NCBI RefSeq assembly: GCF_041222825.1 | Contig: NZ_CP139482.1 | Location: 3,663,501 to 3,727,500, forward strand | Direction: 5' to 3' | DNA: 64,000 nt | Source: Candidatus Thalassolituus haligoni | GTDB lineage: Bacteria > Pseudomonadota > Gammaproteobacteria > Pseudomonadales > Oceanobacteraceae | Shown here: positions 21,155 through 49,526 of the stretch, one piece after another | How the letters are laid out: the number at the start of each line of letters is the position of its first letter | How positions within the stretch are numbered: the stretch's first letter is position 1 | Notes under the pieces: generated by a model | The model's database searches: none | What the model was told of the DNA's origin: nothing | The model's input: only the letters and a program-made list of their open reading frames with translations | Made by a program: the position numbers and the translations under genes

Positions 21155-21649
<495 letters not shown>

Positions 21650-21727: not shown

Positions 21728-22102
<375 letters not shown>

Positions 22103-22167
22103 TTAGCAAACTCCAAACGTTATAGAAAACATACCCCTTCAATTGAGGTACAATAAAAGGGGCGGAG

Positions 22168-22196
22168 ATAGTAATCTCACGCACTGGTCAGGTCAA
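22168..22196 (-). promoter_or_regulatory. sigma-70 promoter of the str operon (rpsL)
   Basis: Minus strand: TTGACC (22196-22191), 17-base spacer, TACTAT (22173-22168). The start would be near 22161, giving a leader of about 58 bases. It lies in the 112-base gap between the last gene of the inserted block and rpsL, and so makes rpsL expression independent of rpoC. Confidence 0.82.
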
Positions 22197-22214
22197 GTAT
22201 TAGACAGCCCAATA

Positions 22215-23669
22215 TTACCCGGCGGTGCTGATATCGAGCCCTATCAGACTGCCGCCCGGATTGGCATCGCCGGTATTGGGTAGCCAGGGGTTCAGGCAGC
22301 GGGAAGATTCAACGCATGGATCGGTCAGCGCGGTCATGAATGCCATTAAATCCTCAATCTGCTGATCACTCAGGCGAGCATCCTGCAGGATTGCATTACC
22401 TTGCTGGCGCAACATCGTCAGTTGTGCCAGCGCATTATTGCTGAATTCCCGGCTGTGCGGGTGCACCAACCCGGACTGACGTTGACTCAGGGCATCAAAA
22501 TCAAAGCTGGCGACACTCTGTTGAGGATCAAGATGATGACGAATCATGGCCTCCAAGCTGTCAAACACGCCCGAGTGACCATACGGAGCGGTATGTTCAA
22601 TGTTGATCAGGGATGGCGTCCGGAAGGCGTAACGATCGTCATAGATGCCGGTGCGCAGGAAACGCCCGGTGTCTTCTTCATTTATATCCTTGCCAATTCC
22701 CGCATGGGGCACAGCCAGCACATGGAACTCCTCATCACTCAGCAAGGCGCCCTGATGGCAAGCGACACAGCCGCCTCCGCCCTGCTCTACCGGCGTATGA
22801 AATACCACAGCACCGGCTTTTTGCCGCTGTGACAGCGCCGCTTGATCCCCCAGCAGATAGCGATTCCAGGGCGTGTCCATAAACACCTGGCTTTGCTCGT
22901 AGGCGGACAGCAGGTTTTGCACCCGCTCGAAATCCAGCAGCTCGTCCAGCGGGCGCGAGGCCTCCTGCGGATACAACTGCAGAAACAGCTGATCCCAACT
23001 GTTGTCACCCCGACCCGCAAGGCGATCCCGCTCAACATCCGCCACCAGGTTCTCGACCAGTACGCGACGGATACGCTGGTTACTGGCGGTTTCGTTAAAG
23101 GTAGAGCGCATCTCATGTTCGGAAGTCACCGGAAATCCCGCCTGGGCACCAATCAGGCTGGATACCGTGCTGTCGATATCGCCATAACGCACGTCCGGCG
23201 TACTGATTCCCGACGTTGTGTGCGCCGCCGTCGAGTGCTGCAAGCGTTCAATCCGGCCGTCATAAAACATCCGTCGTTGCCACAGCGAGGAATTGAAGGT
23301 GGTGGGAGAGTTACGTGGCACCAGCGGCTTGCTGTTTCCCTGGCGCTCCCTGCCAAGGACGTTGCGATCAATCGCCCCTACTCCAATAGGCAACGGCAGC
23401 TGATCACCACCTGCCATCATCGGGTGATGGCAGGTAACACAGGCAACGTCATCGCTGCCCGACAACGAGGTCGAGAAAAACAGCAATTTCCCCAGCCGTG
23501 CTTCTGCTGAATGAATATCCACCGCGGCCGTGAATTGCTGCCCTTCGATGCCGTGATAATCGATCCAGTACTGCAACTGACTGTCGAGTGTTGGCGAGCG
23601 CTCACCACACCCCCACAGCAGCATCAGCAAAGCGCTGATGCCAATCCCCCGGAGACAGTCAGAATACAT
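22215..23669 (-). CDS. MauG/cytochrome c peroxidase-family di-haem lipoprotein
   Basis: Predicted periplasmic, lipid-anchored di-haem c protein; family members reduce hydrogen peroxide or oxidise protein side chains (MauG). Two haem c motifs are present, CVTCH near the N terminus and CVACH in the second half, with the family segments RNSPTTFNSSLWQRRMFYDG and FRTPSLINIEHTAPYGHSG. The start at 23669 (484 aa) is preferred over 23690: GGGGGTGG lies just upstream, and the signal peptide MYSDCLRGIGISALLMLLWG ends in a lipobox-like LWGC. Its ATG lies within the last codons of the giant gene upstream, overlapping by 11 bases, so the two are coupled. No terminator follows, so transcripts may run on into rpsL. 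Substrate unknown. Confidence 0.85.
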   Translation of the reverse strand: MYSDCLRGIGISALLMLLWGCGERSPTLDSQLQYWIDYHGIEGQQFTAAVDIHSAEARLGKLLFFSTSLSGSDDVACVTCHHPMMAGGDQLPLPIGVGAIDRNVLGRERQGNSKPLVPRNSPTTFNSSLWQRRMFYDGRIERLQHSTAAHTTSGISTPDVRYGDIDSTVSSLIGAQAGFPVTSEHEMRSTFNETASNQRIRRVLVENLVADVERDRLAGRGDNSWDQLFLQLYPQEASRPLDELLDFERVQNLLSAYEQSQVFMDTPWNRYLLGDQAALSQRQKAGAVVFHTPVEQGGGGCVACHQGALLSDEEFHVLAVPHAGIGKDINEEDTGRFLRTGIYDDRYAFRTPSLINIEHTAPYGHSGVFDSLEAMIRHHLDPQQSVASFDFDALSQRQSGLVHPHSREFSNNALAQLTMLRQQGNAILQDARLSDQQIEDLMAFMTALTDPCVESSRCLNPWLPNTGDANPGGSLIGLDISTAG

Positions 23670-32600: not shown

Positions 32601-35313
32601 CGCTGGCACGCTGGACATTGGATGAATCCATCACTCGCAGACGGTACGGCGACATGCCCAGCGGCTGCATGTTGAACTGGTATTTGCCATCCGAACCGGT
32701 CACCACCTCAAGGTTTGCAGGCAGCAACCTGACGGTCACATTGGACGCTGGCGTCACCGTATCGGCCTGGTACACGGTACCGCGAATATCTGCAGCCGCT
32801 TCCAGCGTCACCACGGCATCAATGTCTTCCCCGGCGTTCAGCTGGGTACTGAGATTGCCACCAAGACGACCAATGGCATCAAAGGCGGAGATGTGCAACG
32901 ACCCCGCCAGTACGTTGGCAAACGAGGCAACACCACTGTCGTTGGTGACCAGCTGGTAGGTTGCCGCGCCCGAGATGGTCACATCGACACCGGGCACAGG
33001 TTTGCCGTTGAACGATTTCACCTGCACATCGACCTGACCCAGACCGTTCAATACCACGTCAGCAGTGAAGGTGGCGTTGGCAGCATCGACGTTGACGGCG
33101 GCCGAACCAATATCACCATTGGCGGTAGTTACCTTGACCGTACGTTTGCCCACCAGCACATTGTCGAAGCGATAGCTGCCGTCGGCGGCAGCAGTGGTTT
33201 GCTGGTCATCAAGACTGACGCTGGCCGCAGCAGCGATGCTGGCGTCGTGGTTGTACACCACACCGGTCACCGAGCTGGTCGGCGTCAGGGTCATATTGGC
33301 CTGCCGCTCCTCGCCATCCAGATCAATGGCGCCCTGGGCGCTGCCTGCCAGCCCGGTGGCGCTGTCACGCACCGACACCTGGAAGTCACCCACATAGACA
33401 TTGGCAAAATGGAACACCCCCTGGCTGTCGGTAACTGTGGTCAGGGACTGGTCAAACAAGGAGGAACCACTCAGCTTGACCGCCATTTCGACCATCCGCG
33501 TGCCCGCAGACGACTCCACAAATCCGCTCACACTGCCAATGCCAAGGAACACCAGGTCAGCATTGTTAACCTGGGTTGTACCAGACAGCACCACGGTAGA
33601 ACGGGCCCGTTGCAAACCGTCGCCAAAGGCTTCGATGGTGTATTCGCCAAGCGGTACAAATTCAAACTGATACTCACCAAAGGCATTGGTGGTGGTACTG
33701 GAGACATAGCCACCGCCTGAGCGGCTGAGGGTAACCTGACGGGCCTCGCCAGCACTGGTCAGTCCATCGGCCAGCAGCACCTTGCCCTTGATCGTTCCGT
33801 AGGCGCGCAACTGGATATTCAGTTCAAGGTTACCGCCATCAAGCAGCTGCCCTTCTCCAACACCGTACAGACCGGTGCGCGGGTCTTGCGCCACGATCGA
33901 AATGGTTCCCGCTGGCAGGTCTGCAAGCTGGAACATGCCCTGATAATCGGCATTACGATAACGCACCTCGTCACTGTCGCCAAGCCCAATGCTCAGGCGC
34001 GCATTGACGACCACCTCGCCACGAGGATTGGTGACGGTGCCATACACCTGGCCAAAAATGGCAGCCACTTCAATGTCACCGGCGTCGAGGTCTTCGCCCT
34101 CAACCGGTGTCAGCGACAGTGACACGCCGTCTTCAATCACACCGGCACGCACCACCCGGGCATTCAGCACGATCGAGCCATTAACTACCGGCACATTGTG
34201 GATAGTGAAACGGCCGTCCGCAGCGGACAGCGCCGAGAAGGTATCAAAGGCAACCACCGAGGCCGACATCACCGCTTCACCGGCGCTGTCAATCACCCGG
34301 CCATGGATATCAATGGTTGCATTCTGTACCGTCGGATCAAGGCCAAAGTGCACCTCGACCGCATCCGGAATGCCGTCGTTATCGGTATCGGCAGACAGTG
34401 GATCGGTGCCACGCAACACTTCCTCACCGTCAACCAGACCATCGGAATCACTGTCCGGATTCAACGGGTCGGTGCCCAGTGCGCCCTCGTCACCGTCGTT
34501 GATGGTGTCGCCATCGGTATCGGCATGCAGCGGCGAAGTACCAAGCAGATACTCTTCATAGTTGCTGAGGCCATCGCCATCGCGGTCAGCCTGACCATCG
34601 GCAGCCGAAGCCGGGTCGAGGCCGTTGCGGATTTCATATTCGTCCGGCATACCGTCAGAATCGGTGTCGACCGGGAAGAACACATCAAACTCAGTCGACG
34701 CCATCACCCCTTCGTGACGGGCCGATACAATCACATGACCGGAACGATTGGCGGTCACGACGCCATCTTCCGACACCGACACAACGTCTGAGGTCGTGGC
34801 ATACACGGTGCCCTGACTGGCGGCCGTCAGATTGGATTGCGTGCCATCCGGCAATTGCGCCAGCGCGGTCAGCGACACCACCGGAGTGTTAACGTCGAGC
34901 TGGGTGGTGCTGACCTGCAAATCGAGCGATACCGGAATCGGGTGGAACTGGTCAAAGAAAATTTCCCCGACCGCGGTTTCACCATTGGGCACGCCGTATA
35001 GCAGTGCCGACTCGCCATAAACAATATCGCCGTCGTAATCGCAAATTGCCCGCGCCCGGTAGGGCACATTGGTCGACAACGGCGTCAGCAAGGTGAAAGA
35101 GCCATCTTCCTGCACCTGTGCCGAGCCATTGAGAATATTAATGGTGCAGCGTTCATCCAGCTGGGGGATCACACTGATGTAGGTGAAAGCATTGCCTTCG
35201 CTATCAGTGCCCTCTTCTGCTGCCTGCAGCCATGGCGAAGCAAAGCCCGCCAATAACAGCAACACGCCCAGCAAGTACCGCAGCGATGTTGACCAACCGT
35301 GTATCACGTTCAT
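23659..35313 (-). CDS. giant exported multidomain protein: TSP3 calcium repeats, carboxypeptidase-regulatory-like domains, vWA domain
   Basis: 3884 aa with a Sec signal peptide (MNVIHGWSTSLRYLLGVLL, cleavage near LQA-AEE). Domains, approximate residues: calcium-binding TSP3-type repeats 213-330; eight carboxypeptidase-regulatory-like beta domains 331-1005; an unnamed module 1008-1288; about four more such beta domains to 1665; four Ig-like repeats 1667-2040; a fifth Ig-like domain interrupted by a vWA domain with MIDAS motif DTSGS (about 2058-2250); IPT/TIG-like domain 2331-2418; TSP3 block; second copy of the unnamed module 2658-2894; TSP3 block; third copy 3128-3357; TSP3 block; C-terminal Rossmann/amidotransferase-like domain 3641-3884. 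I count only four cysteines after the signal peptide, two at each end. No LPxTG, RTX or autotransporter barrel is seen, so how it is retained is unclear. AGGAAGAGGT precedes the ATG. Function unknown; adhesion or a surface filament is an inference. Confidence 0.9.
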   Translation of the reverse strand: MNVIHGWSTSLRYLLGVLLLLAGFASPWLQAAEEGTDSEGNAFTYISVIPQLDERCTINILNGSAQVQEDGSFTLLTPLSTNVPYRARAICDYDGDIVYGESALLYGVPNGETAVGEIFFDQFHPIPVSLDLQVSTTQLDVNTPVVSLTALAQLPDGTQSNLTAASQGTVYATTSDVVSVSEDGVVTANRSGHVIVSARHEGVMASTEFDVFFPVDTDSDGMPDEYEIRNGLDPASAADGQADRDGDGLSNYEEYLLGTSPLHADTDGDTINDGDEGALGTDPLNPDSDSDGLVDGEEVLRGTDPLSADTDNDGIPDAVEVHFGLDPTVQNATIDIHGRVIDSAGEAVMSASVVAFDTFSALSAADGRFTIHNVPVVNGSIVLNARVVRAGVIEDGVSLSLTPVEGEDLDAGDIEVAAIFGQVYGTVTNPRGEVVVNARLSIGLGDSDEVRYRNADYQGMFQLADLPAGTISIVAQDPRTGLYGVGEGQLLDGGNLELNIQLRAYGTIKGKVLLADGLTSAGEARQVTLSRSGGGYVSSTTTNAFGEYQFEFVPLGEYTIEAFGDGLQRARSTVVLSGTTQVNNADLVFLGIGSVSGFVESSAGTRMVEMAVKLSGSSLFDQSLTTVTDSQGVFHFANVYVGDFQVSVRDSATGLAGSAQGAIDLDGEERQANMTLTPTSSVTGVVYNHDASIAAAASVSLDDQQTTAAADGSYRFDNVLVGKRTVKVTTANGDIGSAAVNVDAANATFTADVVLNGLGQVDVQVKSFNGKPVPGVDVTISGAATYQLVTNDSGVASFANVLAGSLHISAFDAIGRLGGNLSTQLNAGEDIDAVVTLEAAADIRGTVYQADTVTPASNVTVRLLPANLEVVTGSDGKYQFNMQPLGMSPYRLRVMDSSNVQRASASDIELHQNGEIVVVDMTMIGNGSVSGQVYTPSGSLAAGIPVSITSSAGGDADSTATDAYGNYLLRDIPLAGFSVEAVDSTNRFAGTASGTLTEDITEVSADIGMLENQLPGSTSQLENFFDGNGFSYGVRRDGSVGDGTRNVFRGDGDVFRGAGRLDVLIDGERFAFDSGVPSVISDGRETSIRKVFDAGMTVTRRLFVPRDGYFARAIETVANNTEEVQLVELQLDSHYQISNYDRDVSGTTRRVAVPMAVVTSSSGDSFLNISSGEADRWVLVDDDMDQDPFESGNQPAVVHILDGESAGVQAVSGEFLTGSSGGVNRMRLSWMVVVNPGESRSIMHFISQQTDRAAALATVDRLSQLPPEALRWLSPQESAQIVNFNVPEVSALAPLPALLNHISGQVQEFDGAEVVANASVRYQSEHPLFRRLRDVRSNSYGEFAFASQYRNDASAGYIPDADFSLTASHPQTSTRMQFDFPASAFDSEGHAVANLIFSDTGKISGTVRRYDGVVASYGYVELMGETLNSAIKTGIDEDGQFVFNGLLPGAYNLIATLPDPNGTSIGGSVDVQLVANQQLVRDITLAQVNSVSGVVTNGAGTVEAGVTVNLLSAGFERQIRTDSAGYYEFLDVPLGDYQVTMTDPNVGNTIEYAITVGDGEGVVQNFGLTPVGQLLVTVGYDDETIGSLVRVRYQTELRGTRWLSAGSTSGQGWVQINNVPVGDWQVEVTNPNNAELQSIEQGTLASHDQQQAVNVTLARDMAPTATMTAPVDNASFIEGSSVTTALEISDDYGIKQVDFYLAGNYLGRDYSAPFQFTFLADHEPGEVVVAAEVLDKGANRVTVQRTITIVDDEEPPQVSWLTPASGSSFIEGQSVNYRFEASDNTALRKIDLLVNGELINSHSGSDSGNWAIADDYAAGGIAETLMLRAEDIAGNTASATLTLQIEEDQAPTVSWAADTPAAGSGFLEGMAVSVTVDASDDMGLAKVELYADGELLTTRFSSPYRFDFDMPLLDSVENPLTLVARAYDTLGQTSDSAALDLLIEENLPPAVSWNAPAMNDNWVEGELKTLAVNAADDIALLRVDFYLNGSLIGSVDAAPYELEYRLPSGSGGETIQLTATAVDSINQSTSELLTLNRVDDLIAPQVAITAPNDGSIVTLGESDVVIVIDTSGSAGSSSGADVDGDGSADSILAAEVFASKQLLNFLNPLTTRVAVVDFSSSAVVVSGLSDDFEAVDLALDQILASGASGGTNFTNAMNASITEVMGARSRPKASAVLLFMSDGSAAYPTASVSTAINAGIIVNTFAVGGGADGTVLEQIADATSGVATEVSDASKVVEILPKTVLFGLDSLISLAEASDDVAVRDVTLRTSLADGTVLDEQLDSEAPYSLASALPSVDEAVEVIVQAVATDYGDNSTDSAAVSVTLLPAETEPVLVELNPQNAASGSNVRVYGRYLIADGTDIPSASDSGEIAVNTVYLNGQPITPVSSTKSVILIQLPAGFASGELYIDVDGFQTNSLALTIDDDQDGLSNEQEALLGTNPAVADSDGDGLNDGDEVNLHGTDPLLADTDADGINDLVEVQQSLNPLDPTDANGDADGDGVSNIDELGLGTGINDADSDNDNLSDGDEVSLGTDPLDSDSDDDGLADGAEAAVGADPLLADTDGDGINDADEANYGLDPADASDANIDSDGDGLINIDEIALGSDPGNVDSDGDGLSDGDEHNSYNTSPTNADTDYDGDSDGVEVAAGTDPNDPQSSVTVGLSGSLFDSDSNEWNVSSYGTINYGHYVFDPGFYLKLNGSLFNDSDYRAVRERDDLWLLEDDITVNDAVTSTAVTLRVERHIHVSTLKPMIRYVEQLHNNSDTDVTLQVWLDTDFNYDSSSTLVSKSSGTDTSTLSAADHYAIFDDSDGSGRKASAFLWSDDSAPVMPADSTFAGDDLDFYWDVTVPAHSQVSIMHFVALGTTQTDTANLLAEMVQLDSNWIGDLSLEKLSSVVNLGMDADGDGLPDPIEVAIGTSTASTDSDNDGLGDRFEYESGLDPLLANYPTADFDGDGLSAADEMLAGTLENNADTDGDGLDDGAEISAGTDPLLGDSDGDGLSDGYEVDTFGSSPLLADSDADGLNDGVEDSLGLNPNAADSDADGLDDATEVSLGFNPLDPDDAAADPDGDGLSNLEEIAQGTDFDNLDTDADGLNDGDEVSLGTNPLDSDSDGDGDSDGLEVEGGSDPLDANSSISVALPYTLTDGAGNSWTFNSGGYANSIGEDGGHTSRLFNEYSDLQWDTRALRLSDSQLDFVGSFFSWEETTSVEVNRAVTVSATRGYVRYLDTFTNISTSQLLLPVRLHFYLPSASATAMVADDGSSELDRQHQWARTQMLANGYQAAFMWRTAAGLEPDAISQSSMEFYVEYRLTLAPGETVNLMHLVAADTDVSVLEALMQDLAQNPSAFFDGISAAQQQTMPNMVIDSDSDGLPDYVEATLGTDSALADSDGDGLLDGFEVQWGFDPLVAGDESADADGDGLDNLTEQGLGSNPTQADSDADGLDDQLEVSLGTSPVAADSDGDGLADGEEINSHGTDPLLSDSDADGLSDGEEVGLGSNPTVADTDADGMTDGFEALYGLDPNDAQDAATDIDSDGLTNLQEFTVGTHPGLADSDNDGLSDQQELDVTQTSPVNSDTDGDGLGDGFEVDYGFDPNLAGEQVLDGDGDGLTNAQEFALGTNPTLADSDGDGVDDASDEMPLDPTRTERIDVLVVVDVGDEEGIELALVNALTAASLDYQVMMGSELETSMQSGLIDDLRDQLTAYKLVLWTNGTYGYLSDDQELLLGSYLNGGGCALFSSQDHVYSQGLTYLLTDFMGVAAVGSDMGDSGSSLTVTATGSLYPQEQSVLLQFTRQNYGDTITPASAEVIFRYSEHNAAVMYDSGTHLGVFTGFPVEAISDDAERGDFIRRVVDACHYRHDTSVRYTAPESGSDLPVTDEPAGGGDVF

Positions 35314-35343
35314 GACTTAACCTCTTCCTGAGCGATGGCGAAA

Positions 35344-36303
35344 CTAGTGTCCATTGGTTTTCTGAATAAGGTGCTGAATACCCGACTTGAGCGCGTCGGA
35401 TGGAGTTTGACGTTGCAGCAATTTGAGCTGCGGCAGATACGGGCGAAGCGCCGATCCATAACCGGACAAGGCCGACACAATGGCCAGCTGCAAGGGTTCC
35501 GCAGACTGGATCAGCAGCTGGAACCGCAACGCAGGCAAGGCTTCTGCTGGAGTCAGCAAAGCCAACGCCCGGGCACTGGCGATTTGCTCGTCACTGCGGC
35601 CCGCAGCCAGCATCCGTATCAGATCCGATACCGTCGACAGTCGCTGTTGCAACGGCGCTTCGCCGCTATATCGGCCGTGCAATTGCCGTATCCACAGCTG
35701 TCGCAGTGCCGCCGGAGCCAACCAGCCAATGCCGTTCTGTTGCTGTTGTACGCCGCGATACATGGCCAGCAGATCCTGCTCTGACTGACAGGCGGCAGGG
35801 GCTGTGGTGCTGGCGCTGACCAGCGCCGCCAGCAGCTGTTCTTCAAGTGCTGTCAGCTGCCATTGCAAGGCAGCACCACGCTTGAACCACAAGCGGCAGA
35901 GGTTCAGGTAGTCGTTCGCCATGGCGTCAGCGGCCAAATAGGTGTGCTGATACCAGCCCGGAATGTCGCGCCAATTGCCAACGCCATGTACCGCAGCCAG
36001 CAGTTCGGCGTACTGGATCAACCGCGTCTCCGCAATGGCGCTGTCGTCGGCCTGGCCGTTGATATCCACCTCAGCCAATCGCCCGGCCAGCCAGCCCGAC
36101 AGGTCTTCGCTGTCGAACACTTCCGCAGGCAGAGACTGTTGTTGCAGCTCGCCAATGACTGACGCCAGCTGCCCCGCAGACAGCTCGCCATCGTGCCACT
36201 GCCAGCGATCCGATAACGGCTGTGCCAGCCCGATGCAGCGCAGCAACACCACAAGCGCAGCCAGGGCAACCAGCACGGCAGCAATACCGAACACACGTTT
36301 CAT
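35344..36303 (-). CDS. membrane-anchored protein of unknown function
   Basis: 319 aa. The N terminus (MKRVFGIAAVLVALAALVVL) is a signal anchor or signal peptide. The rest is leucine-, alanine- and glutamine-rich and probably all helical; the C-terminal third (SARALALLTPAEALPALRFQ) looks like short helical HEAT-type repeats. I do not recognise a family. It starts 5 bases after the DsbA-like gene and ends 30 bases before the giant gene, so it belongs to the same operon and probably acts in the periplasm. Confidence 0.75.
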   Translation of the reverse strand: MKRVFGIAAVLVALAALVVLLRCIGLAQPLSDRWQWHDGELSAGQLASVIGELQQQSLPAEVFDSEDLSGWLAGRLAEVDINGQADDSAIAETRLIQYAELLAAVHGVGNWRDIPGWYQHTYLAADAMANDYLNLCRLWFKRGAALQWQLTALEEQLLAALVSASTTAPAACQSEQDLLAMYRGVQQQQNGIGWLAPAALRQLWIRQLHGRYSGEAPLQQRLSTVSDLIRMLAAGRSDEQIASARALALLTPAEALPALRFQLLIQSAEPLQLAIVSALSGYGSALRPYLPQLKLLQRQTPSDALKSGIQHLIQKTNGH

Positions 36304-36308
36304 CGTGA

Positions 36309-37106
36309 TCAGGCCCCCTGGTTAAACACTTGCTGCAAGGCTTCGTCGAAGCGTGCCAGCGACTGGGCACCGGAAACGGAAACAAAATCGACCAGATCAT
36401 CACCATCAACCCGTCCGATCAGAAAGCGAGGTGTGCCAGAAACCCCCAGCCGCACCGCTTCGGAAACATCCTTGCGCAGATCCGTCAGCTGTGACGGCTC
36501 GTTGAAGCAGCTTTCAAAGGCGTCGGCCTGCAAGCCGATCCCGGCGGCAAGTCCGTCATAAATGGAGGACGACAGGCTGCGGGTGTTTTCCAGCAGCGCG
36601 TTATGCATGGCTTCAAACTGGCCCTGTTCTGCTGCGCAACGGGCAGCGATGGCGGCATTCTCAGCCTGGGCATGAAATTCCAGTGGGAAATCCTTGACCA
36701 CGTACTGCACCAGCCCGCTGTCAATGTATTTGCGCTTCAACGTTGGCAGTGTCTGGCTGGAGTGACGCACGCAGTAAGGGCACTGGTAGTCCATAAACTC
36801 AACAATGGCGTACTCGACATCGTCACTGCCCAGACGCTGGCGGGTGTCGCTCAGTCCCAGCGCCAGACGGCGCGGTTGCTGGGCCTGCGGAGCAGCGGCG
36901 GCGGCTGGTATCGCGGCCACCTGCTGTTGCAGTCGCACGACTTCGGCAGTCAGCTGTTGCAACTGCTGATTGATCTGCTCCAGATGGGCGTCTTTTGCCG
37001 AATCAGCGACAGCGGCCGGAGCAACGTCTGCTGCCTTGTGCTGGTCTTGGCAACCGGCCAGCAGCAACGCCAGTACAGCGGTCAGGGTGAGGGAAATCAG
37101 CTTCAT
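36309..37106 (-). CDS. DsbA-like thiol:disulfide oxidoreductase lipoprotein
   Basis: 265 aa. Lipoprotein signal MKLISLTLTAVLALLLAGC with lipobox LAGC. Residues about 35-80 are glutamine-rich and likely coiled coil (LEQINQQLQQLTAEVVRLQQ). The rest is a DsbA-fold thioredoxin domain: EFMDYQCPYCVRHS carries the CPYC active site, and GVSGTPRFLIG carries the cis-proline loop. The architecture (coiled coil then thioredoxin) resembles membrane-tethered Com1/DsbA-like proteins. ATG at 37106 is preferred; the ATG at 37118 overlaps the upstream stop but has a poorer ribosome site. Neighbouring products are exported, and the 1656-aa product is rich in cysteine, so an operon-specific disulfide role is a reasonable inference. 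Confidence 0.87.
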   Translation of the reverse strand: MKLISLTLTAVLALLLAGCQDQHKAADVAPAAVADSAKDAHLEQINQQLQQLTAEVVRLQQQVAAIPAAAAAPQAQQPRRLALGLSDTRQRLGSDDVEYAIVEFMDYQCPYCVRHSSQTLPTLKRKYIDSGLVQYVVKDFPLEFHAQAENAAIAARCAAEQGQFEAMHNALLENTRSLSSSIYDGLAAGIGLQADAFESCFNEPSQLTDLRKDVSEAVRLGVSGTPRFLIGRVDGDDLVDFVSVSGAQSLARFDEALQQVFNQGA

Positions 37107-37117
37107 GGCGGTATCCA

Positions 37118-37648
37118 TTATCGGGATTGACAGTCGATCACCAGATGGCCGGTCGCCAGCTGATACTCAACCGAATTGGCTTGCAGGGATTTGAGCAAAC
37201 GTTTCATGGTTGCCGGTACGGCCGACGCCGGAGCCAGGCCCGGATCAACGACCAGTGCACGACATACAGGAACGCCAACAGCACCATTGAAATACTGGTA
37301 AAACAGGGTTTGGGCATGCACCGAAGGAGGCAGACTGAAGCCCGGCAAGCGGTTCAGATTGGCTACCTGAGCGGCCGGTGTGAAAGATTCCTTGAAGGTT
37401 TCACCACGCACCGAAAACGACTGGTTGATTGCAAACTGGATGGATTCGCCCTCGGCAAGATCCCGGCTGCTTTCGGACTTGCTGTCGATCAGGTATTGGC
37501 CATCGGTATTGGCGGTGTAATTCACCGTCATACCATCAATCTGATAATCGGCATGGCATACCGACGCTATCAGGGCTGCAAATAACAGCCCTGTTATATT
37601 TCGAACAAAACCCACCGAAACACCTTTTGATATTCGATTCACAGTCAT
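37118..37648 (-). CDS. small exported protein of unknown function
   Basis: 176 aa from the ATG at 37648, which has GGAGGA 7 bases upstream. A signal peptide ends near LIASVCHA-DYQ. The mature part is predicted to be beta-rich and has two cysteines (GVPVCRALV and VIDCQSR) that could form a disulfide. No family recognised. The stop overlaps the in-frame upstream ATG of the DsbA-like gene. Confidence 0.72.
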   Translation of the reverse strand: MTVNRISKGVSVGFVRNITGLLFAALIASVCHADYQIDGMTVNYTANTDGQYLIDSKSESSRDLAEGESIQFAINQSFSVRGETFKESFTPAAQVANLNRLPGFSLPPSVHAQTLFYQYFNGAVGVPVCRALVVDPGLAPASAVPATMKRLLKSLQANSVEYQLATGHLVIDCQSR

Positions 37649-37725
37649 AACTATTCCTCCGGGGTGCAGCATTCACCCCGCCATAAACCCTGACATAGCG
37701 TATTCAACAACCCTTACGAGCTAGC

Positions 37726-38841
37726 TCACGGCATCAAACGCTGCTGTATATCCCGATACACAACACTGGTTTGAAATGCCTGGGCAATGACCCCATCCGT
37801 CCGTTCCAACTGGATTTGCGGTACGATTTTTCCGTTATCGCCAACGGCAAGAAAGGCCAGTCGTTGGTCGGTATCCGAGAATTTCATTTTGAAAAATACG
37901 AAATCGACATAATTGCCTTGAATCAGAAGCAAAGGAGATATCTCCTGAACATTGGCCAGAACGGCATTCAAGGAAATAACATTCAGCGCGTGCATCCCGG
38001 TCGAGTTTGGCCGAGGCAAGTAGGTAACGTCGGTGGAGTTTGGGTTATTCCAATAGGGAGACATGGTGGCAACGATTTTTGCCACAATGTCATCACCAGC
38101 GTTGGCGATGATATCCTGATTATCCAGGAATGCCTGACGCAACTCTTTGACCGCAGCGAACTTCGCTTTTAATTGCGCGTTATTACCGCTGGCCTGATAG
38201 CCAAAAATACCCGAACGATCCGAAGACTGCGGGTATTCGATAACATGGCCACCGACAGGTTGTTGAATGGATTCACCCGGATACACCACCACATTTGCGA
38301 AATTAATCAGTGGGTCAGAGGCAGACATCATCTGCGCACTCATTTTACAGTCATCGGCACAATGCACCAGCTCTGACCAGCCAGCCAAACGCTTGCTGCC
38401 CTCACCGTACCATTCGACGCCAACCAGGTAATAGAGACCAATGCTCGCCAGCATATTGAGCTTGACGGCCTTGACCTGATAGAAGCGCGCGTACTTGCCA
38501 GGGTTTTTACGCATTTCCTCCAGGATCTTCGAGCGGCTTTTATCCGCGACCGAAAAGGTATCGGCAATTTTAGCGGTATCATTATTGCGGGCAGCGGCGT
38601 AATACTCTTTCAATACAGATGTTACAGCTTCGGGAACACTGGCATCCGGTTGGTCAAGCCACATTGACACCGACTTTTTACGAACCGATACAGAAACGCT
38701 GCAATTCTGACCATCAAACGCCAAACAGTTGTGAACCAGTGGTACGTTTGCCGCCGTCGCCTGACATGCCAAAGACACAGAGGAAATTGCCATCGCCCAG
38801 CGCAGCACCCGCCGGATTACCGTGGTTATTAAAACAGCCAT
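37726..38841 (-). CDS. exported protein of unknown function
   Basis: 371 aa from the ATG at 38841, with GGAGGT 5 bases upstream (an earlier in-frame start at 38874 lies inside the preceding gene). A signal peptide ends near LACQATA-ANV. Four cysteines are in the mature part (NCLAFDGQNC and HCADDC), in two close pairs that suit disulfides. The region VPEAVTSVLKEYYAAARNND resembles the start of an NTF2/SnoaL-like fold, but this is only an impression. Followed by a 77-base gap, the longest inside the accessory operon. Confidence 0.72.
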   Translation of the reverse strand: MAVLITTVIRRVLRWAMAISSVSLACQATAANVPLVHNCLAFDGQNCSVSVSVRKKSVSMWLDQPDASVPEAVTSVLKEYYAAARNNDTAKIADTFSVADKSRSKILEEMRKNPGKYARFYQVKAVKLNMLASIGLYYLVGVEWYGEGSKRLAGWSELVHCADDCKMSAQMMSASDPLINFANVVVYPGESIQQPVGGHVIEYPQSSDRSGIFGYQASGNNAQLKAKFAAVKELRQAFLDNQDIIANAGDDIVAKIVATMSPYWNNPNSTDVTYLPRPNSTGMHALNVISLNAVLANVQEISPLLLIQGNYVDFVFFKMKFSDTDQRLAFLAVGDNGKIVPQIQLERTDGVIAQAFQTSVVYRDIQQRLMP

Positions 38842-38842
38842 A

Positions 38843-39422
38843 TTACCTCCATTTATCTTTTTCAAATCGTTCAAGTACTTCTGGCGGGCAGTGTTTACTT
38901 GCGGTTACTTGTAACCCGGTGATTTCTGAAAAATCGTCCAGCGCATCAAAAAAATTCCTTGCGGTTGGCAAATTCGTCCAAACTGAAATTGCCCAGCAAC
39001 GAATAGTAATCGTCGCCATAACGAGCAATACCCTGACTATTTAGTACCAGCATCGGGTAAACCATAAACGAGCTCCGGTTTCCCGCACTGGAGGCAGTTG
39101 CGATTCTGAACATCAGGCAAATTCTGTTCACATCGTCAAAACGGATTTCGATTCGTTTTTCTTTTGAAAAGCGGATTTTCCTTTCCAGCAGCTTTTCTTT
39201 GGTAATCAGAACATGAAGCTTGTATCGCAGCAGTAACCAACCCGGGATGAAAAACAGTACTGACACCACTACAATGGCCTGCCACCTCAACCCTGGACCA
39301 ATCGTCAGAAACACCAGTGCCAAAACACCAATCCAGAGTGCTCCTTTCCCCAAAGAGCGAAAAATTTTTGCTAATGGTGAGTCGATATCAATCACCCCCA
39401 GAGTCCGGTTGATATTAATCAT
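38843..39422 (-). pseudogene. frameshifted paralogue of the neighbouring two-helix membrane protein
   Basis: Two overlapping reading frames together give a product like the 190-aa protein encoded at 39507-40079. Frame one runs MININRTLGVIDIDSPLAK, through two hydrophobic helices, to EFANRKEFF and stops. Frame two continues FDALDDFSEITGLQVTASK and ends CPPEVLERFEKDKWR, matching CPPEIIERFGKDRWR of the neighbour. The switch falls in a run of seven T (38948-38954 as A on the plus strand); with six T the frame is open throughout. This could be a true mutation, a slippage-controlled gene, or a sequencing error. The start is set by alignment with the paralogue; a GTG at 39479 is possible. Confidence 0.8.
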
Positions 39423-39506
39423 TAGTACATAGACCCCGATACCATGAATGCTTTGCAAATACCCAAGAGTATCAAACACTGCTTGCCAACTAAATTGCCA
39501 CTCATA

Positions 39507-40079
39507 TCAACGCCACCGATCCTTGCCAAACCGCTCTATTATTTCGGGCGGACAATTTTTCTCTGCGAAAACATCAAGCCCAGTTAACTCTGAGAGAACA
39601 ACCATAAAGTCGTAGAATTCCGGCCTGGTATTAAAGTTTTTATAGGTAAGTATCCCCAGCAGATTAAATTCCTCACCATGCCTACTAAAAGCTGATTTTT
39701 TAATGACCAAGATCGGAAATATAAAATATTTCGATTTGATCGTTGGGGCTGTACCTCGGGCAATATCAAACCCAATACATATCCGATCAACATCAGAAAA
39801 TTCCAACACCTTTTCCTTGTGCCGAAACCACTGATATCGTCTATCCACCAGCTTTTCAGAGGTAATCACGACCTGCTGTTGATAAGTGATCATCGCCGCA
39901 CCAAGTGCGAATAAAAAAAATATAAACAAGCCCAAAGCCCAGTGCACCACAGGCTCAAAAAAAGCGGCGAACAGACACACAGAAGCAATGGCCAGTAATA
40001 TCTTGCCAAACTGGCGAGCCCCCTCTGCATTGCGAGTGTTGATGGTCAACACCCCTTCGGTGGAATCAAATGTCATCAT
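39507..40079 (-). CDS. small two-helix membrane protein with PH-like cytoplasmic part
   Basis: 190 aa. Two hydrophobic helices (ILLAIASVCLFAAFF and HWALGLFIFFLFALG) are followed by a beta-rich part (VVITSEKLVDRRYQWFRHKE; LEFSDVDRICIGFDI) like small bacterial membrane proteins with a PH-type fold. The function is unknown. Its ATG overlaps the stop of the 1656-aa lipoprotein gene (TAATG) and a frameshifted tandem paralogue follows. That position, directly behind a large exported protein and duplicated, is reminiscent of immunity genes but there is no direct evidence. Confidence 0.75.
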   Translation of the reverse strand: MMTFDSTEGVLTINTRNAEGARQFGKILLAIASVCLFAAFFEPVVHWALGLFIFFLFALGAAMITYQQQVVITSEKLVDRRYQWFRHKEKVLEFSDVDRICIGFDIARGTAPTIKSKYFIFPILVIKKSAFSRHGEEFNLLGILTYKNFNTRPEFYDFMVVLSELTGLDVFAEKNCPPEIIERFGKDRWR

Positions 40080-43000
40080 TAATCACACGACCCGTAACTG
40101 TTTTTTTCAAAGATGGTTTGGGTAGATTCAATTTGATAGCTGCCCTCATAAACGCCGCCAGCGACAAATTTCAATTCGAGCCTCGCAACAGCCTTGGTTT
40201 CTTCCAGATAGAATCCGGCACATCCACTCGGGCAGTTTTCACCAATATAGCCGAGAGCGCGTAAGCCACCTTTCGCTTCAATGCCGACGTCGGTAGCAGC
40301 GCCCAATGCAAGCAAATCATTGCAGTCCCCATCGTCAGGGTCGGAGAACCCGCAGCTCTCTATCTTTCCTTCAGCGGTAAAGGTAGCACCACCAAACAAT
40401 GTGAGTTCGCCCCCTGCCGAGAATTCGGAGCAAGGCTCATCGGTATTGCACTCTGTATTTTTATGTTCAACAGAAGCGGCCAAACTGGCACTCCCCCTTG
40501 CGACAGCTCCCACTTCCAACGTTGCACTTGCCCAAACGCCTAATCCAACATGCTTAGCTGGAAACTGCATTGCCAATCCGAACCCGGGAAGTGCAGCGGT
40601 TGCCTTGATCGATACGGAGCTATTGAGGGACAACTTTTCATAAGCCTTGGGCTCTGGCCCTTCGTCGCAATTGCAACACTCTTCACCCGTCTCAATAGAG
40701 CCTTTGTTTTCCCAACTCAGCTGCGAAATATTGATATAAGGACTTCTAGACCAAGCAGAAATAGCTTCATCGAAGCTCGTCGAAATATCGTTGCTACCTC
40801 CCAATGCGCGAGTTTTTTTCTCATTACTGGCGCCACAGTCTGGCCGCTTACAGGTGCCGTCGATACAGACAAAGCAGGCTTTCTCAGGATCATCCGAGCA
40901 GGATGTTTCTTCATTGGCCGGTACCACTTCCCCTTCACTGCAGGTTTTGCACTTGTTGTCATCACGTTTGCTCGGGTCGGGAATATCGCTGTCGTCTGCT
41001 TCTGCCGAGGGTGAACCAGCAACACACCGGGTGGTTTTACAGTCCCCATCGGTGGTGCTGTCATCCGGTGTTTCATCCGCCGGGTCCCAACCGGTACATT
41101 TCAGGGTCTTGCAGTCCTTGTTGTCCTGTTCTGACTTGACCTTGTCGTCGAGCCGTTCAGAGTCACAACTGCAGGAATCCGGATTCTTCGAGCGGGCAAC
41201 ACACTCATCGTCGCTGTCGCAGGAAATGTTGCAGGTATCTTCCGGCTCAGGCGGTACACCACCCCAACCGGAATGACGAATACCATGGCCTTCGCGGGAG
41301 GTAATAGTGGCACCGTCGTCAGACACCACCCCTGGTCCGATGCTGACCCATTCCATCAGGTCGTGGTCGAACGAGAACATTTCCAGCTCTTCACCCGGCG
41401 CACCGTTGAAGGTGTTTGGCAAGGAAACCCGTGCTGGCGGATCAAATTCAATACCGGCAGGCTGCAAGGTCCAGGCAACGTCAAACACACTGCCGTTTGG
41501 TGCAGGCATGGGAACCTTGTCGGTCTGCACCTGGGTGAACATCACGCGGCCAGACTTACGGCCGTCAGGGAAGGTCATCGAGTTGGCCGGAATAATGACC
41601 TGGGCACCCGCCACCCCACGCATCGGAATCACCACTTCTTCGTCATTGCCAGCAATCTTGCCGCCGTCGTAGTCCACTTTCGGGAAGTAGATCGGCATGC
41701 CAACGGTGTTGTTCTGGCCACTGATCGTCACCATTTCGAACATCAGGTGTGGCCACTCGCCATCCCGACTGGTGGTACTGCCGTCCAGCACCAGATGCAC
41801 AGTGCCAACCGGCGCATTGGTGAAGCGGAGCTTGCCCTGGGCATCCGTGACTTCGGTACGGGTACTGAAGGCGTTGCCTTTGATTTTGACTTCCACACCT
41901 TGCAGCGGCAGGTTGCTGTTATCCAGCACCAGCCCCGTGATAAGCGTGTCCTGGACGTTGCCCGGACGCAGGTTATTAGCGACAAAGTCGGTTTTCAGTT
42001 CCGAACGACCGTAGACCTCGGCAACCACAATCTGGCTGGCGGTCCCCAGCTCTGCAAGGGTGGCACCCAGCACAAAATCGACACTGGCATTGCCATCAAG
42101 GTCGGTCGATACCGTCACCTCGTTAGCTGCAGCGGCGTCCTCGGCGTACACCTGACCAGAGCCTTTCACCACCCGGAACACCACATCGACCCCAGCCAGG
42201 GCATTGCCATTGGTATCCGTCACCTTGGCGATCAACGGCTCAGGCAACACCGCGCCCATCATGCCGGTTTGCTGGCTACCGCGAGCAACGTTGATGCTGG
42301 CCGGAGAAGCGGCCTGGGCTGAGGCTGAAAAGACCACCACGCCAGGGAAGCCAATGGCACTGGTAGTAACCTGGTGCTTGCCTGCCCCGGAGCGCTTGCC
42401 CAGGGTAAATTCGATATTGGCAATGCCAAGCTCGTTGGTCAGCACCAGCAAGTCCCGTCCGCTACGGGCACCGGACTGCAACTCGCCGTCACCTTCGGTT
42501 ACCCGGAAAGTCACCGCACGGTCGCTGATCGGCAGGTTGTTGCGGTCCACCAGTTTCACGGTCAACGGATCGCCAAGTGTGCCCTCTACCTGAGCGCTCT
42601 GGTTGTTACCCGACAACTCCAGTATGCGTTGACCGGCATCCTTCAGATACACCACGGTACGGGTCAGCTGGCGGGAGTTACCCATGGCGTCGGTGGCCTG
42701 AATCGTCAGCACGTTGGAGCCCGGGCGCAGGTTGTAGGATGGCAGCTCAAAAGTACGGTCTACCACCGGTACAGTAATGCCATTGACGGTCACGACCGGC
42801 TCAATCACACCACTGAGATTGGAGCGCAAGTCATCGAGACTGCCTGCCACGGTAATGCTGGACTCGGTGGTCACCATGCCGTCCGAGAGACTGGAAACAA
42901 TGATATTGGGGGCAGTGGTATCAAGAATGACATTGCGGGTAGCGGTGGTTGCCCGCACGCCGGTCACACTGCTGAACTGCCCCACGGCGGTGAGCTTGTT

Positions 43001-45049
43001 AGTGCCTTCCACCAATAGCACTTCCGCAGTAAAGGTATTGCCGGACAGGGTGGCATCAACGTCTTCGACCCGCACTGAATCGACAGGGCCAACCACACGG
43101 CCGGTGACCAGCACCTGGGTGTCACGGGTTAAATAGCCGCTGACCGGTGTGTCGATCATCACCACCACTTCCACCAGGTAGCGAGAGGCGTCATCCGGGT
43201 AATCGTCTTCGTTGTTGGCAACACCATCGCCATCGCGGTCAGAATCCAGCGCATCTGCAATCAGGTCGCCATCGAGGTCGGCAGGCACACTGTCTGAGTC
43301 GCGCGGGTCGGTTCCAAGCTGTTGCTCTACTGCGTTTTCAAAGCCATCGCCGTCAATATCGGTGTCGCTGTTGTCACCAATACCGTCGCCGTCCAGGTCG
43401 GCAGTTTCATTGCCGTCATCCGGCAGGGCATCGTTGTCGTTCAGTACGCCGTCGCCATCACGATCGTCATCGAGCTGATCGGGAATAAAGTCGCCATCGA
43501 GATCGGCAGGGATATCGTAGACATTGGTGATCGATGTCCCCAGCTGGGCTTCAACGTCATTGCTGTAACCGTCACCATCGATGTCTTCGTCGCTGGAGTC
43601 CGGAATAAAGTCACCGTCCATATCCGCTGGCACCGAGCTGTCCAGCAGCGGATCGCTGCCTTCGGCCAATTCAACGTCATCGTTGTAGCCATCGTTGTCG
43701 GCATCCGGGTCGGCGTTATCGCCCATGCCATCACCGTCGGTATCGCGTGTTTCAGCGCCATCATCCGGGAACGCATCGAGCTCATTAAGCACACCGTCGC
43801 CATCGCGATCCTCATCCTGGTCGTCCGGAATAAAGTCGCTGTCAAGGTCGGCAGGTACAGAGCCGGCATCGTTCGGATTGGTGCCTGAAGTCACTTCTGC
43901 CGTATTGGTAAAACCATCGCCGTCACGATCAGGGTCGCCGTTGTCACCAACACCATCGCCGTCAAGGTCGCTGCTTTCGGCCGGATCATTGGGGAACAAG
44001 TCGACGTCGTTCAGCACCCCGTCGCCGTCACGGTCTTCGTCTTGGTCGTCCGGAATAAAGTCGCCGTCGAGGTCGGCCGGTACCGATTCGGCATCGTTCG
44101 GATTGCTGCCTGACGTGGTTTCGGAAGCATTGCTGTAACCATCGCCGTCGCGGTCGCGGTCGGTGTTGTCGCCGATGCCGTCGCCGTCGAGATCCGCACT
44201 TTCGGAGCCATCATCCGGAAAGCGGTCGTCGTCGTTGGCCACGCCGTCACCATCACGGTCGGCATCCTGGTTGTCAGGAATAAAATCGCCATCAAGGTCG
44301 GACGGCACCGAGCCAGCATCATTGGGGCTGCTGCCCGCAGCAATTTCGGAATCGTTACTGTAACCATCACCATCGCGGTCAGTGTCGGCGTTATCGCCCG
44401 TACCATCACCGTCGAGGTCGGCGCTTTCTGACGGATCTGCTGGGAAGGCATCTAACTGGTTGTCGACGCCATCGCCGTCACGGTCAGGATCGGCATTGTC
44501 ACCCGTACCGTCGCCATCCAGATCGGAAGTTTCAGTGCCATCGAAAGGAAATGCGTCGTCGTTGTTGCCGACACCGTCACCGTCAACATCAGGATCACTG
44601 TTGTCACCAATGCCGTCGCCATCGAGGTCGGAACTCTCGGCAGGATCATCCGGAAAGGCGTCGTCAATATCATCGACACCATCACCGTCGCGGTCGGTCA
44701 CTTCGGCGGCTTCCAACACCGCTGTCAGCTGACGGTCTTGCGACATCACCAGACGACATTGCGGCGCGGTGCCACAGCCGTCGCTGCCTTCCCAACGCAC
44801 AAATACAAGGCGTTCGGTTGGCTGTGCGGTCAGTACCACCCTGTCGCCCTTGTCATAGCGATAACAGAGCCCGGCCGGGTCTTCACATACCTCACCCTGC
44901 GGACTGATATCAACCAGTGACAGGTCGGCCGCAGAGGCACCTGAAGTGATGTTCAGCAACAATACACTGGAAGACTTGTCATCCTCTGACATACAGCCTG
45001 TCAGCAAGACGATGAAAAACACCCAGTAAAAACGATTAATCAGACGCAT
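40079..45049 (-). CDS. large TSP3-repeat lipoprotein with Ig-like, Big_1-like and cysteine-rich regions
   Basis: 1656 aa. Lipoprotein signal (MRLINRFYWVFFIVLLTGC, lipobox LTGC). Approximate residues: 118-628 aspartate-rich TSP3-type calcium repeats, with recurring units such as DLDGDGIGDN and DRDGDGYSN; 630-815 Ig-like; 816-1015 two Big_1/invasin-like repeats (GDPLTVKLVDRNNLPISD; EPLIAKVTDTNGNALAG); 1032-1100 carboxypeptidase-regulatory-like; 1120-1260 a region like that preceding Rhs repeats (VIIPANSMTFPDG, FDVAWTLQPAGIEFDPP); 1268-1458 cysteine-rich, about nineteen Cys; 1465-1656 a glycine/alanine-rich beta domain with more cysteines. No Rhs repeats follow. First gene of the accessory operon, 250 bases downstream of rpoC after its terminator. 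Outer-membrane or surface location is inferred. Confidence 0.88.
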   Translation of the reverse strand: MRLINRFYWVFFIVLLTGCMSEDDKSSSVLLLNITSGASAADLSLVDISPQGEVCEDPAGLCYRYDKGDRVVLTAQPTERLVFVRWEGSDGCGTAPQCRLVMSQDRQLTAVLEAAEVTDRDGDGVDDIDDAFPDDPAESSDLDGDGIGDNSDPDVDGDGVGNNDDAFPFDGTETSDLDGDGTGDNADPDRDGDGVDNQLDAFPADPSESADLDGDGTGDNADTDRDGDGYSNDSEIAAGSSPNDAGSVPSDLDGDFIPDNQDADRDGDGVANDDDRFPDDGSESADLDGDGIGDNTDRDRDGDGYSNASETTSGSNPNDAESVPADLDGDFIPDDQDEDRDGDGVLNDVDLFPNDPAESSDLDGDGVGDNGDPDRDGDGFTNTAEVTSGTNPNDAGSVPADLDSDFIPDDQDEDRDGDGVLNELDAFPDDGAETRDTDGDGMGDNADPDADNDGYNDDVELAEGSDPLLDSSVPADMDGDFIPDSSDEDIDGDGYSNDVEAQLGTSITNVYDIPADLDGDFIPDQLDDDRDGDGVLNDNDALPDDGNETADLDGDGIGDNSDTDIDGDGFENAVEQQLGTDPRDSDSVPADLDGDLIADALDSDRDGDGVANNEDDYPDDASRYLVEVVVMIDTPVSGYLTRDTQVLVTGRVVGPVDSVRVEDVDATLSGNTFTAEVLLVEGTNKLTAVGQFSSVTGVRATTATRNVILDTTAPNIIVSSLSDGMVTTESSITVAGSLDDLRSNLSGVIEPVVTVNGITVPVVDRTFELPSYNLRPGSNVLTIQATDAMGNSRQLTRTVVYLKDAGQRILELSGNNQSAQVEGTLGDPLTVKLVDRNNLPISDRAVTFRVTEGDGELQSGARSGRDLLVLTNELGIANIEFTLGKRSGAGKHQVTTSAIGFPGVVVFSASAQAASPASINVARGSQQTGMMGAVLPEPLIAKVTDTNGNALAGVDVVFRVVKGSGQVYAEDAAAANEVTVSTDLDGNASVDFVLGATLAELGTASQIVVAEVYGRSELKTDFVANNLRPGNVQDTLITGLVLDNSNLPLQGVEVKIKGNAFSTRTEVTDAQGKLRFTNAPVGTVHLVLDGSTTSRDGEWPHLMFEMVTISGQNNTVGMPIYFPKVDYDGGKIAGNDEEVVIPMRGVAGAQVIIPANSMTFPDGRKSGRVMFTQVQTDKVPMPAPNGSVFDVAWTLQPAGIEFDPPARVSLPNTFNGAPGEELEMFSFDHDLMEWVSIGPGVVSDDGATITSREGHGIRHSGWGGVPPEPEDTCNISCDSDDECVARSKNPDSCSCDSERLDDKVKSEQDNKDCKTLKCTGWDPADETPDDSTTDGDCKTTRCVAGSPSAEADDSDIPDPSKRDDNKCKTCSEGEVVPANEETSCSDDPEKACFVCIDGTCKRPDCGASNEKKTRALGGSNDISTSFDEAISAWSRSPYINISQLSWENKGSIETGEECCNCDEGPEPKAYEKLSLNSSVSIKATAALPGFGLAMQFPAKHVGLGVWASATLEVGAVARGSASLAASVEHKNTECNTDEPCSEFSAGGELTLFGGATFTAEGKIESCGFSDPDDGDCNDLLALGAATDVGIEAKGGLRALGYIGENCPSGCAGFYLEETKAVARLELKFVAGGVYEGSYQIESTQTIFEKNSYGSCD

Positions 45050-45246
45050 CCCTGCAAGCCTAAATGTAAAGTTATGAGAGAAAGTTCCGTGAAGGCGGTA
45101 CTGTATTTACATTTATTAACTTTTTCTGTGCGATTTTTAACAATTGAAGCAGTTGGCTTGGCAGAACCCAGAACGAATCCACCAGGAAGGTATGCCGAAA
45201 AGCAGCCGTGGCCAGCTGGGCAAATTGGTTGTAGAAAACCCAACGC

Positions 45247-45275
45247 AAAAAAAAGAACCCCGAGGGGCTCTTTTT
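45247..45275 (-). terminator. terminator after rpoC
   Basis: Minus strand: GAGCCC, loop CTCG, GGGTTC, then eight T, with one G-T wobble pair. It lies 25 bases past the rpoC stop and should end the rplKAJL-rpoBC transcript here, before the inserted block. The remaining 200 bases to 45049 must hold the block's own promoter; only a weak candidate is visible (TTGTTA with a TTAATA-like -10 near 45110-45145). Confidence 0.85.
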
Positions 45276-45299
45276 CAAACAGTTCAGCACTCTGGTGAC

Positions 45300-49526
<4,227 letters not shown>

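Follow-up and report, generated by a model that had tools for sequence, protein, structure and literature searches.

In most of the relatives with a readable locus, rpoC and rpsL are neighbours. In Candidatus Thalassolituus haligoni they are separated by about 23 kb of DNA holding nine genes, which raises the question of whether these genes form one working system or have simply gathered at a tolerant site. We examined the block (22215–45049) within a window of 64,000 nucleotides, the whole stretch of DNA analysed, from a genome assembled as one contig of 4,376,545 bp. Here we tentatively favour the reading that the block is an accessory operon for a surface-contact (adhesion-type) system with its own oxidative-folding helpers, and we weigh it against antagonism, accretion and recent import.

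The block is bounded upstream by rpoC (45300–49526, − strand) and downstream by rpsL (ribosomal S12; 21728–22102, − strand), beyond which lies the gene for ribosomal S7 (21155–21625). The nine ORFs between them share the − strand and are spaced by −32 to +104 bp, the overlaps being 1, 1 and 32 bp; they would be read as a single transcript. In the order of transcription these are giant2 (40079–45049), a 1656-aa lipoprotein with a lipobox read by eye; m190 (39507–40079), a membrane protein with a TM-like stretch at residues 23–67; m177 (38946–39479), a paralogue of m190; p382 (37726–38874, probable ATG at 38841), an exported orphan with a signal peptide read by eye; p184 (37118–37672), an exported protein of no family; a DsbA-like thioredoxin-fold lipoprotein (36309–37118); p319 (35344–36303), an N-terminally anchored orphan predicted to be all-helical; the giant (23659–35313), an exported protein of 3884 aa; and a MauG-like protein (22215–23690), a di-heme lipoprotein of the CCP_MauG family, its lipobox again read by eye and its gene running 32 bp into the end of that for the giant. 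All nine products look exported or membrane-bound from a signal peptide, lipobox, N-terminal anchor or two membrane helices read by eye, and a hydropathy scan places TM-like stretches in six of them, the others being the MauG-like protein, p382 and giant2. The first-pass annotation had described nine packed, co-oriented genes, nearly all for exported or membrane proteins, among them two TSP3 giants and DsbA-like and MauG-like lipoproteins. This description is borne out, with TSP3_bac in both giants and Thioredoxin_4/DSBA and CCP_MauG in the two lipoproteins. At E 0.01 there is no Pfam family for m190, m177, p382, p184 or p319, and at E 5 there is still none for m190; p382 has an NTF2-like domain at about residues 62–173. 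Pfam finds no radical SAM family among the nine proteins, and the block genes include no secretion machinery for the giant.

We compared the junction in 44 genomes of the family, this one included. A match to rpsL was found in 30 of them, that is, in 29 relatives, and in 25 of the 29 the 1.5-kb flank of rpsL reaches the end of rpoC, which upholds the earlier statement that the linkage is conserved. The pair is uninterrupted in all five same-genus relatives that have the locus. A genome labelled as the same species (G014) yielded no match to the rpoC end or to rpsL and was left out of the comparison; in G001 (L032), the rpsL match is split in two around an unmatched middle part. In the remaining four relatives, all of genus g7 (G026, G030, G033 and G034), other genes split the pair. 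The intervening DNA amounts to about 2.1 kb in G026, 3.2 kb in G030 and 6.2 kb in G034, and in G033 the stretch is cut by a contig end. When Pfam was run on eight intervening proteins from these relatives, the G034 insert proved to encode an Hsp70 (454 bits), a protein with a DnaJ domain below the cut-off, a PETase-like hydrolase and small unknowns, and the G033 insert a TrkH beside a gene that is TrkA-like by eye; the remaining four of the eight proteins gave no Pfam match above the cut-off. The G026 insert consists of unknown genes. An Hsp70-like and DnaJ-like pair is seen between rpoC and rpsL at L055:15672–18562 and, by eye only, at L054:3560–6408, so that G030 resembles G034. Farther afield, three of the four Campylobacter jejuni isolates compared have the PR2 fucose region at this junction, between rpoC and rpsL, and the fourth lacks it there, according to excerpts of PMC5749857. 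Because four relatives carry other genes here and PR2 occupies the same place, the space between rpoC and rpsL is, to judge from these comparisons, a recurrent insertion site. An occupied junction is thus not peculiar to this genome.

The initial reading had called the ends of the block clean, with an rpoC terminator on one side and an rpsL promoter on the other. At the downstream junction (22103–22214, − strand) the MauG stop is followed by an rpsL promoter region that is kept in five same-genus relatives, where it starts 2–10 bp after the position of the stop. At the upstream junction (45050–45299, − strand) a terminator-like rpoC hairpin can be read by eye ahead of the region before giant2, and little past the hairpin is alignable in same-genus relatives. 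However, a pattern scan of 35200–46000 omits the hairpin from its listing, finds no promoter-like site before giant2, and returns 5 promoter-like sites against 7.3 expected and 13 terminator-like sites against 11.0 expected. Near rpsL there is a promoter-like site at 22196–22168, and such sites are again at chance (2 found, 2.5 expected).

The giant combines TSP3_bac (16 stretches), CarboxypepD_reg (10), Big_7 (4) and a VWA domain with a DxSxS motif. A search with it gave 3649 matches at E 0.001 (7989 candidates scored, the best 120 listed). Fourteen of the listed giants (P0004–P0017) align over 66–99% of its length at 39–48% identity, and for 11 the aligned share is at least 89%; by alignment, the protein is one with colinear full-length relatives. 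Its 278-aa module A1 (residues 1012–1289) has no Pfam match at E 5 and, at E 1e-10, occurs in 1 of 369 genomes of the class (its own) and in 2 of 390 of the order (its own and G530, at 7.2e-18). Contig 59 of G530 (L146, L141 and L142) carries a 15,011-aa ORF with a weak A1 match, followed by two PpiC-type lipoproteins.

Two of the smaller proteins have recognizable redox domains. The DsbA-like lipoprotein scores above the cut-off for Thioredoxin_4 (86.2 bits) and DSBA (57.1 bits) and has a CPYC motif at residue 113. The MauG-like protein reaches 89.1 bits for CCP_MauG (PF03150; cut-off 25.6), with CxxCH motifs at residues 84 and 308. It aligns nearly end to end with the His-Xaa-Ser-associated model TIGR03981, at 228.9 bits against a cut-off of 340, a score that leaves it outside that family. 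It also falls short of MauG proper (TIGR03791; 94.2 against 443.85 bits) and scores below the model cut-off for MbnH. The profile alignment to cytochrome c peroxidases ends just before the Met that is their distal ligand, and an ungapped extension of that alignment places His386 at the putative ligand position, which in the 19 aligned family homologues is His in 10 and Tyr in 9. According to excerpts of PMC6405878, the ligand in BthA is Tyr463; a His substitution there abolishes the near-infrared (bis-Fe(IV)) feature, as Y294H does in MauG, and the Y463H variant of BthA remains able to reduce H2O2. Given His386 at the presumed ligand position and these Tyr-to-His effects in BthA and MauG, a peroxidase role seems more likely for the block protein than MauG-type side-chain chemistry.

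The block genes differ widely in how common they are. Both p319 and p382 occur in one of the 44 family genomes, their own, and are absent from the 43 relatives. Among 7998 candidates scored from a large protein database, P0002 (66%) is the single outside relative of p319; among the 2929 scored for p382 there are three (P0124, 64%; P0125, 65%; and P0126, 38%), P0125 being a near-identical form of P0124. The records of P0002 and P0124 give an identical length, 38,634 bp, for the longest contig. To judge from this, the two most likely share that contig, and in one other lineage part of the block has thus probably stayed together. None of the best 120 of the 3649 giant matches lists a longest contig of that size. 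Beyond its own genome the DsbA-like protein has weak matches, at 22–28% identity, in 4 of 43 relatives, and MauG-family matches are present in 43 of the 44 genomes, this one included (E 0.001). In one relative (G030, L069:17625–20000) a MauG domain and TSP3-type repeats share one frame of 1282 aa, and MauG-family matches in other relatives likewise lie in frames longer than 1100 aa.

The first-pass annotation had proposed that the set is a dedicated surface-structure system and had suggested looking for the MauG-like, DsbA-like and giant genes together in other genomes. On this count the evidence is divided. In its favour, the block is operon-like, exported, accessory and rare, and its orphans are probably kept together elsewhere; moreover, a same-genus relative (G018) has a 2231-aa RHS-repeat lipoprotein directly followed by a 2207-aa giant-like protein, whose N terminus matches the giant (35%, residues 52–342), on another contig than its rpoC–rpsL. 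Downstream of the giant-like gene come a 110-aa ORF and the genes for an FG-GAP protein and for a membrane protein that has five CxxCH motifs; the G018 row (L139:232–13474 and L143:14839–19887) thus comprises the RHS lipoprotein, a giant Big_5/LVIVD protein, the FG-GAP protein and the five-CxxCH membrane protein. Against the proposal, parts of the block occur scattered. MauG-like homologues of up to 45% identity lie at other places and have no relatives of the block giants nearby in any of the seven genomes with context read; near the one in G037 is an unrelated exported-looking ORF of 2526 aa. The stretches read around same-family giants in two MAGs (L078 and L079) contain no neighbouring MauG-like gene, and single m177 relatives (57–59%) in G035, G038 and G039 have no giants within the 20 kb read. 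By sequence, a Cys-rich lipoprotein immediately follows the giant relative in both MAGs; it lies at about 19.2–20.8 kb, is extremely Cys-rich and, in L079, where Pfam was run, matches DUF7107.

Another explanation is that the block arrived recently as a mobile island or is the remnant of a prophage. The junction left intact in all five same-genus relatives and the absence of p319 and p382 from 43 relatives would fit such an origin, as would the composition. The G+C content is a mosaic, with p319 (0.608) and the DsbA-like gene (0.596) at the top and m190 (0.436) and m177 (0.442) at the bottom, against a mean of 0.543 for 299 host ORFs, with p319 and m190 as the extremes, and 0.537 for 20 sampled host stretches. 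Over the giants, the tetranucleotide distance in 5-kb windows (0.26–0.31) exceeds that of all 80 host windows; the neighbouring ribosomal and rpo windows are nearly as atypical (0.22–0.29, also beyond the 80), and the 35–40 kb window is ordinary. Yet none of the nine proteins has an integrase or transposase domain in Pfam, the only tRNAs of the window lie at 57–63 kb, and the compared ends share one exact repeat of at least 10 bp, which measures 10 bp and falls within the block, so that the earlier remark on the lack of an integrase, transposase or tRNA flank holds. There is also no PHROG match for the eight proteins other than the giant, and the codon-usage distances of the nine genes fall between the 7th and 93rd percentiles of length-matched host ORFs (299 sampled). 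Composition gives no clear age for the block. The host-like codon usage makes a very recent import less likely and points to a rather long residence, and the mosaic G+C and atypical tetranucleotides would fit a piecemeal or foreign origin as well; a recent island, already disfavoured, seems highly improbable. In a further alternative, unrelated genes for exported proteins would have accumulated in a permissive rpoC–rpsL gap without any joint function. The different genes at the site in four relatives of one genus, the strong G+C differences within the block and the unlinked relatives of the MauG-like protein and m177 all lend themselves to this explanation. It accounts poorly for nine of nine genes with exported or membrane-bound products and for their overlaps of 1, 1 and 32 bp, for p319 and p382 relatives that list one longest contig, and for giant2-like and giant-like genes that adjoin in G018, and we regard it as unlikely.

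The anatomy of giant2 bears on another alternative, in which the block would serve antagonism through a polymorphic toxin. Giant2 has TSP3_bac (six stretches), Big_1 and Glucodextran_B domains, with CarboxypepD_reg below the cut-off. Its residues 408–1294 are 34% identical to the N-terminal carrier of the G018 RHS lipoprotein (L139:6779–13474), a match that stops at the start of the DUF6531/RHS core of that protein, at about residue 950 of 2231; giant2 itself has no RHS_repeat or DUF6531 at E 0.01. The protein contains 31 Cys and is Cys-rich from about residue 1275. Its C terminus (about 1295–1656) has no match in Pfam (E 5), PDB sequences (E 1) or plasmids (E 0.01), and a search of the 44 genomes with residues 830–1656 found a single match outside its own genome, in G018, covering 835–1296. 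Within the gene, GC3 is 0.648 before residue 1341 and 0.486 after it, and G+C drops at residue 1360; neither contrast is reached in any of 1000 block permutations. The gene for m190 overlaps the giant2 stop by 1 bp and is low in G+C (0.436). Its product is small, membrane-bound to judge from its TM-like stretch, and accompanied by a tandem paralogue, m177, whose C-terminal homology to m190 continues in another frame, as from an apparent frameshift. The break lies near the 3′ end of m177 (38840–38990) and marks either a decayed paralogue or a sequencing error.

In this order, an apparently exchanged C-terminal module and then a small membrane gene, giant2 and m190 resemble polymorphic toxins as described in excerpts of PMC3482391. 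Giant2 would then be a surface lipoprotein carrier, its C-terminal 360 or so residues an exchanged effector, m190 and a decayed m177 the immunity proteins, and the giant and other genes the display and maturation part. The carrier match that stops at the RHS core, the matchless C terminus, the compositional break and the position of m190 are all consistent with this proposal. Against it, giant2 has neither an RHS core nor a known toxin domain; the break lies 47–66 residues past the end of the match rather than at it; and the exchange point falls before the RHS core. In RHS toxins, it is classically the tip after the core that varies. Further, relatives of m177 occur in G035, G038 and G039 without a giant2-like gene in the 20 kb read, and the Cys-rich, apparently beta-rich C terminus could be structural. 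We consider antagonism somewhat unlikely. A specific version with a new layout, in which the RHS carrier is kept, the cage is replaced by a disulfide-rich tip, and a tandem membrane immunity pair, a second giant and DsbA-like and di-heme maturation proteins are added, strikes us as distinctly doubtful.

We return to the surface-contact reading, which we favour while giving it slightly less than an even chance. It rests on the packed genes, the domains of the exported proteins, host-like codon usage, the undivided rpoC–rpsL pair in 25 of 29 relatives, the probable co-location of the orphans' outside relatives, the full-length relatives of the giant and the recurrence of linked pieces. What counts against a single system are the scattered relatives of single parts, the mosaic composition, the atypical tetranucleotide usage over the giants, the broken-looking m177, a block devoid of secretion machinery for the giant, the lack of a promoter-like site ahead of giant2 and the chance-level counts of promoter-like and terminator-like sites in the block. 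On this reading, an accessory operon would have long resided in the rpoC–rpsL gap, a recurrent insertion site. Giant2 would be a lipid-anchored rod of Ca2+-binding repeats with a Cys-rich C terminus, and the giant an exported rod of great length, built from Ig-like, carboxypeptidase-regulatory and VWA domains with TSP3 repeats of the Ca2+-binding type, both presumably at the cell surface. The DsbA-like lipoprotein would form the disulfides of giant2, with its 31 Cys, and the di-heme peroxidase-type lipoprotein would remove or use peroxide from this oxidative folding; p319, p382, p184 and m190 would be anchored or exported accessory proteins. If the block is one system, a single operon would bring together giant surface proteins, a carrier of the RHS type whose tip differs, and private helpers for oxidative folding.

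Parts of this arrangement have counterparts elsewhere. The G018 RHS lipoprotein shares with giant2 the carrier region, lipoprotein status by eye and an adjoining giant-like gene, but its repeats are of the metal-binding MopE type and it contains an RHS core, where giant2 has TSP3 repeats and a Cys-rich, RHS-free C terminus. The bCCP/MauG family (MauG, BthA, MbnH and TIGR03981) shares PF03150 and two CxxCH motifs with the block protein; MauG and BthA have Tyr at the distal ligand position, whereas the block protein would have His386, on our extended alignment. For the giant, proteins of Pelagibaculum spongiae (P0012) and an Alcanivorax sp. (P0014), with 91% and 89% of the protein matched at 43% identity, have the same Pfam domain set (VWA/CarboxypepD_reg/TSP3/Big_7) and similar ends, in records that give no function. 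By description, the block may also be likened to the Giant1–5 cluster of the lactic acid bacterium Apilactobacillus kunkeei, which encodes very large extracellular surface proteins according to excerpts of PMC12863079. By position, it is likened to C. jejuni PR2, whose accessory genes sit at the same junction but serve fucose utilization in another phylum, in the excerpted account of PMC5749857. In unrelated bacteria, accessory genes have thus settled repeatedly at the rpoC–rpsL junction, which is commonly treated as fixed.
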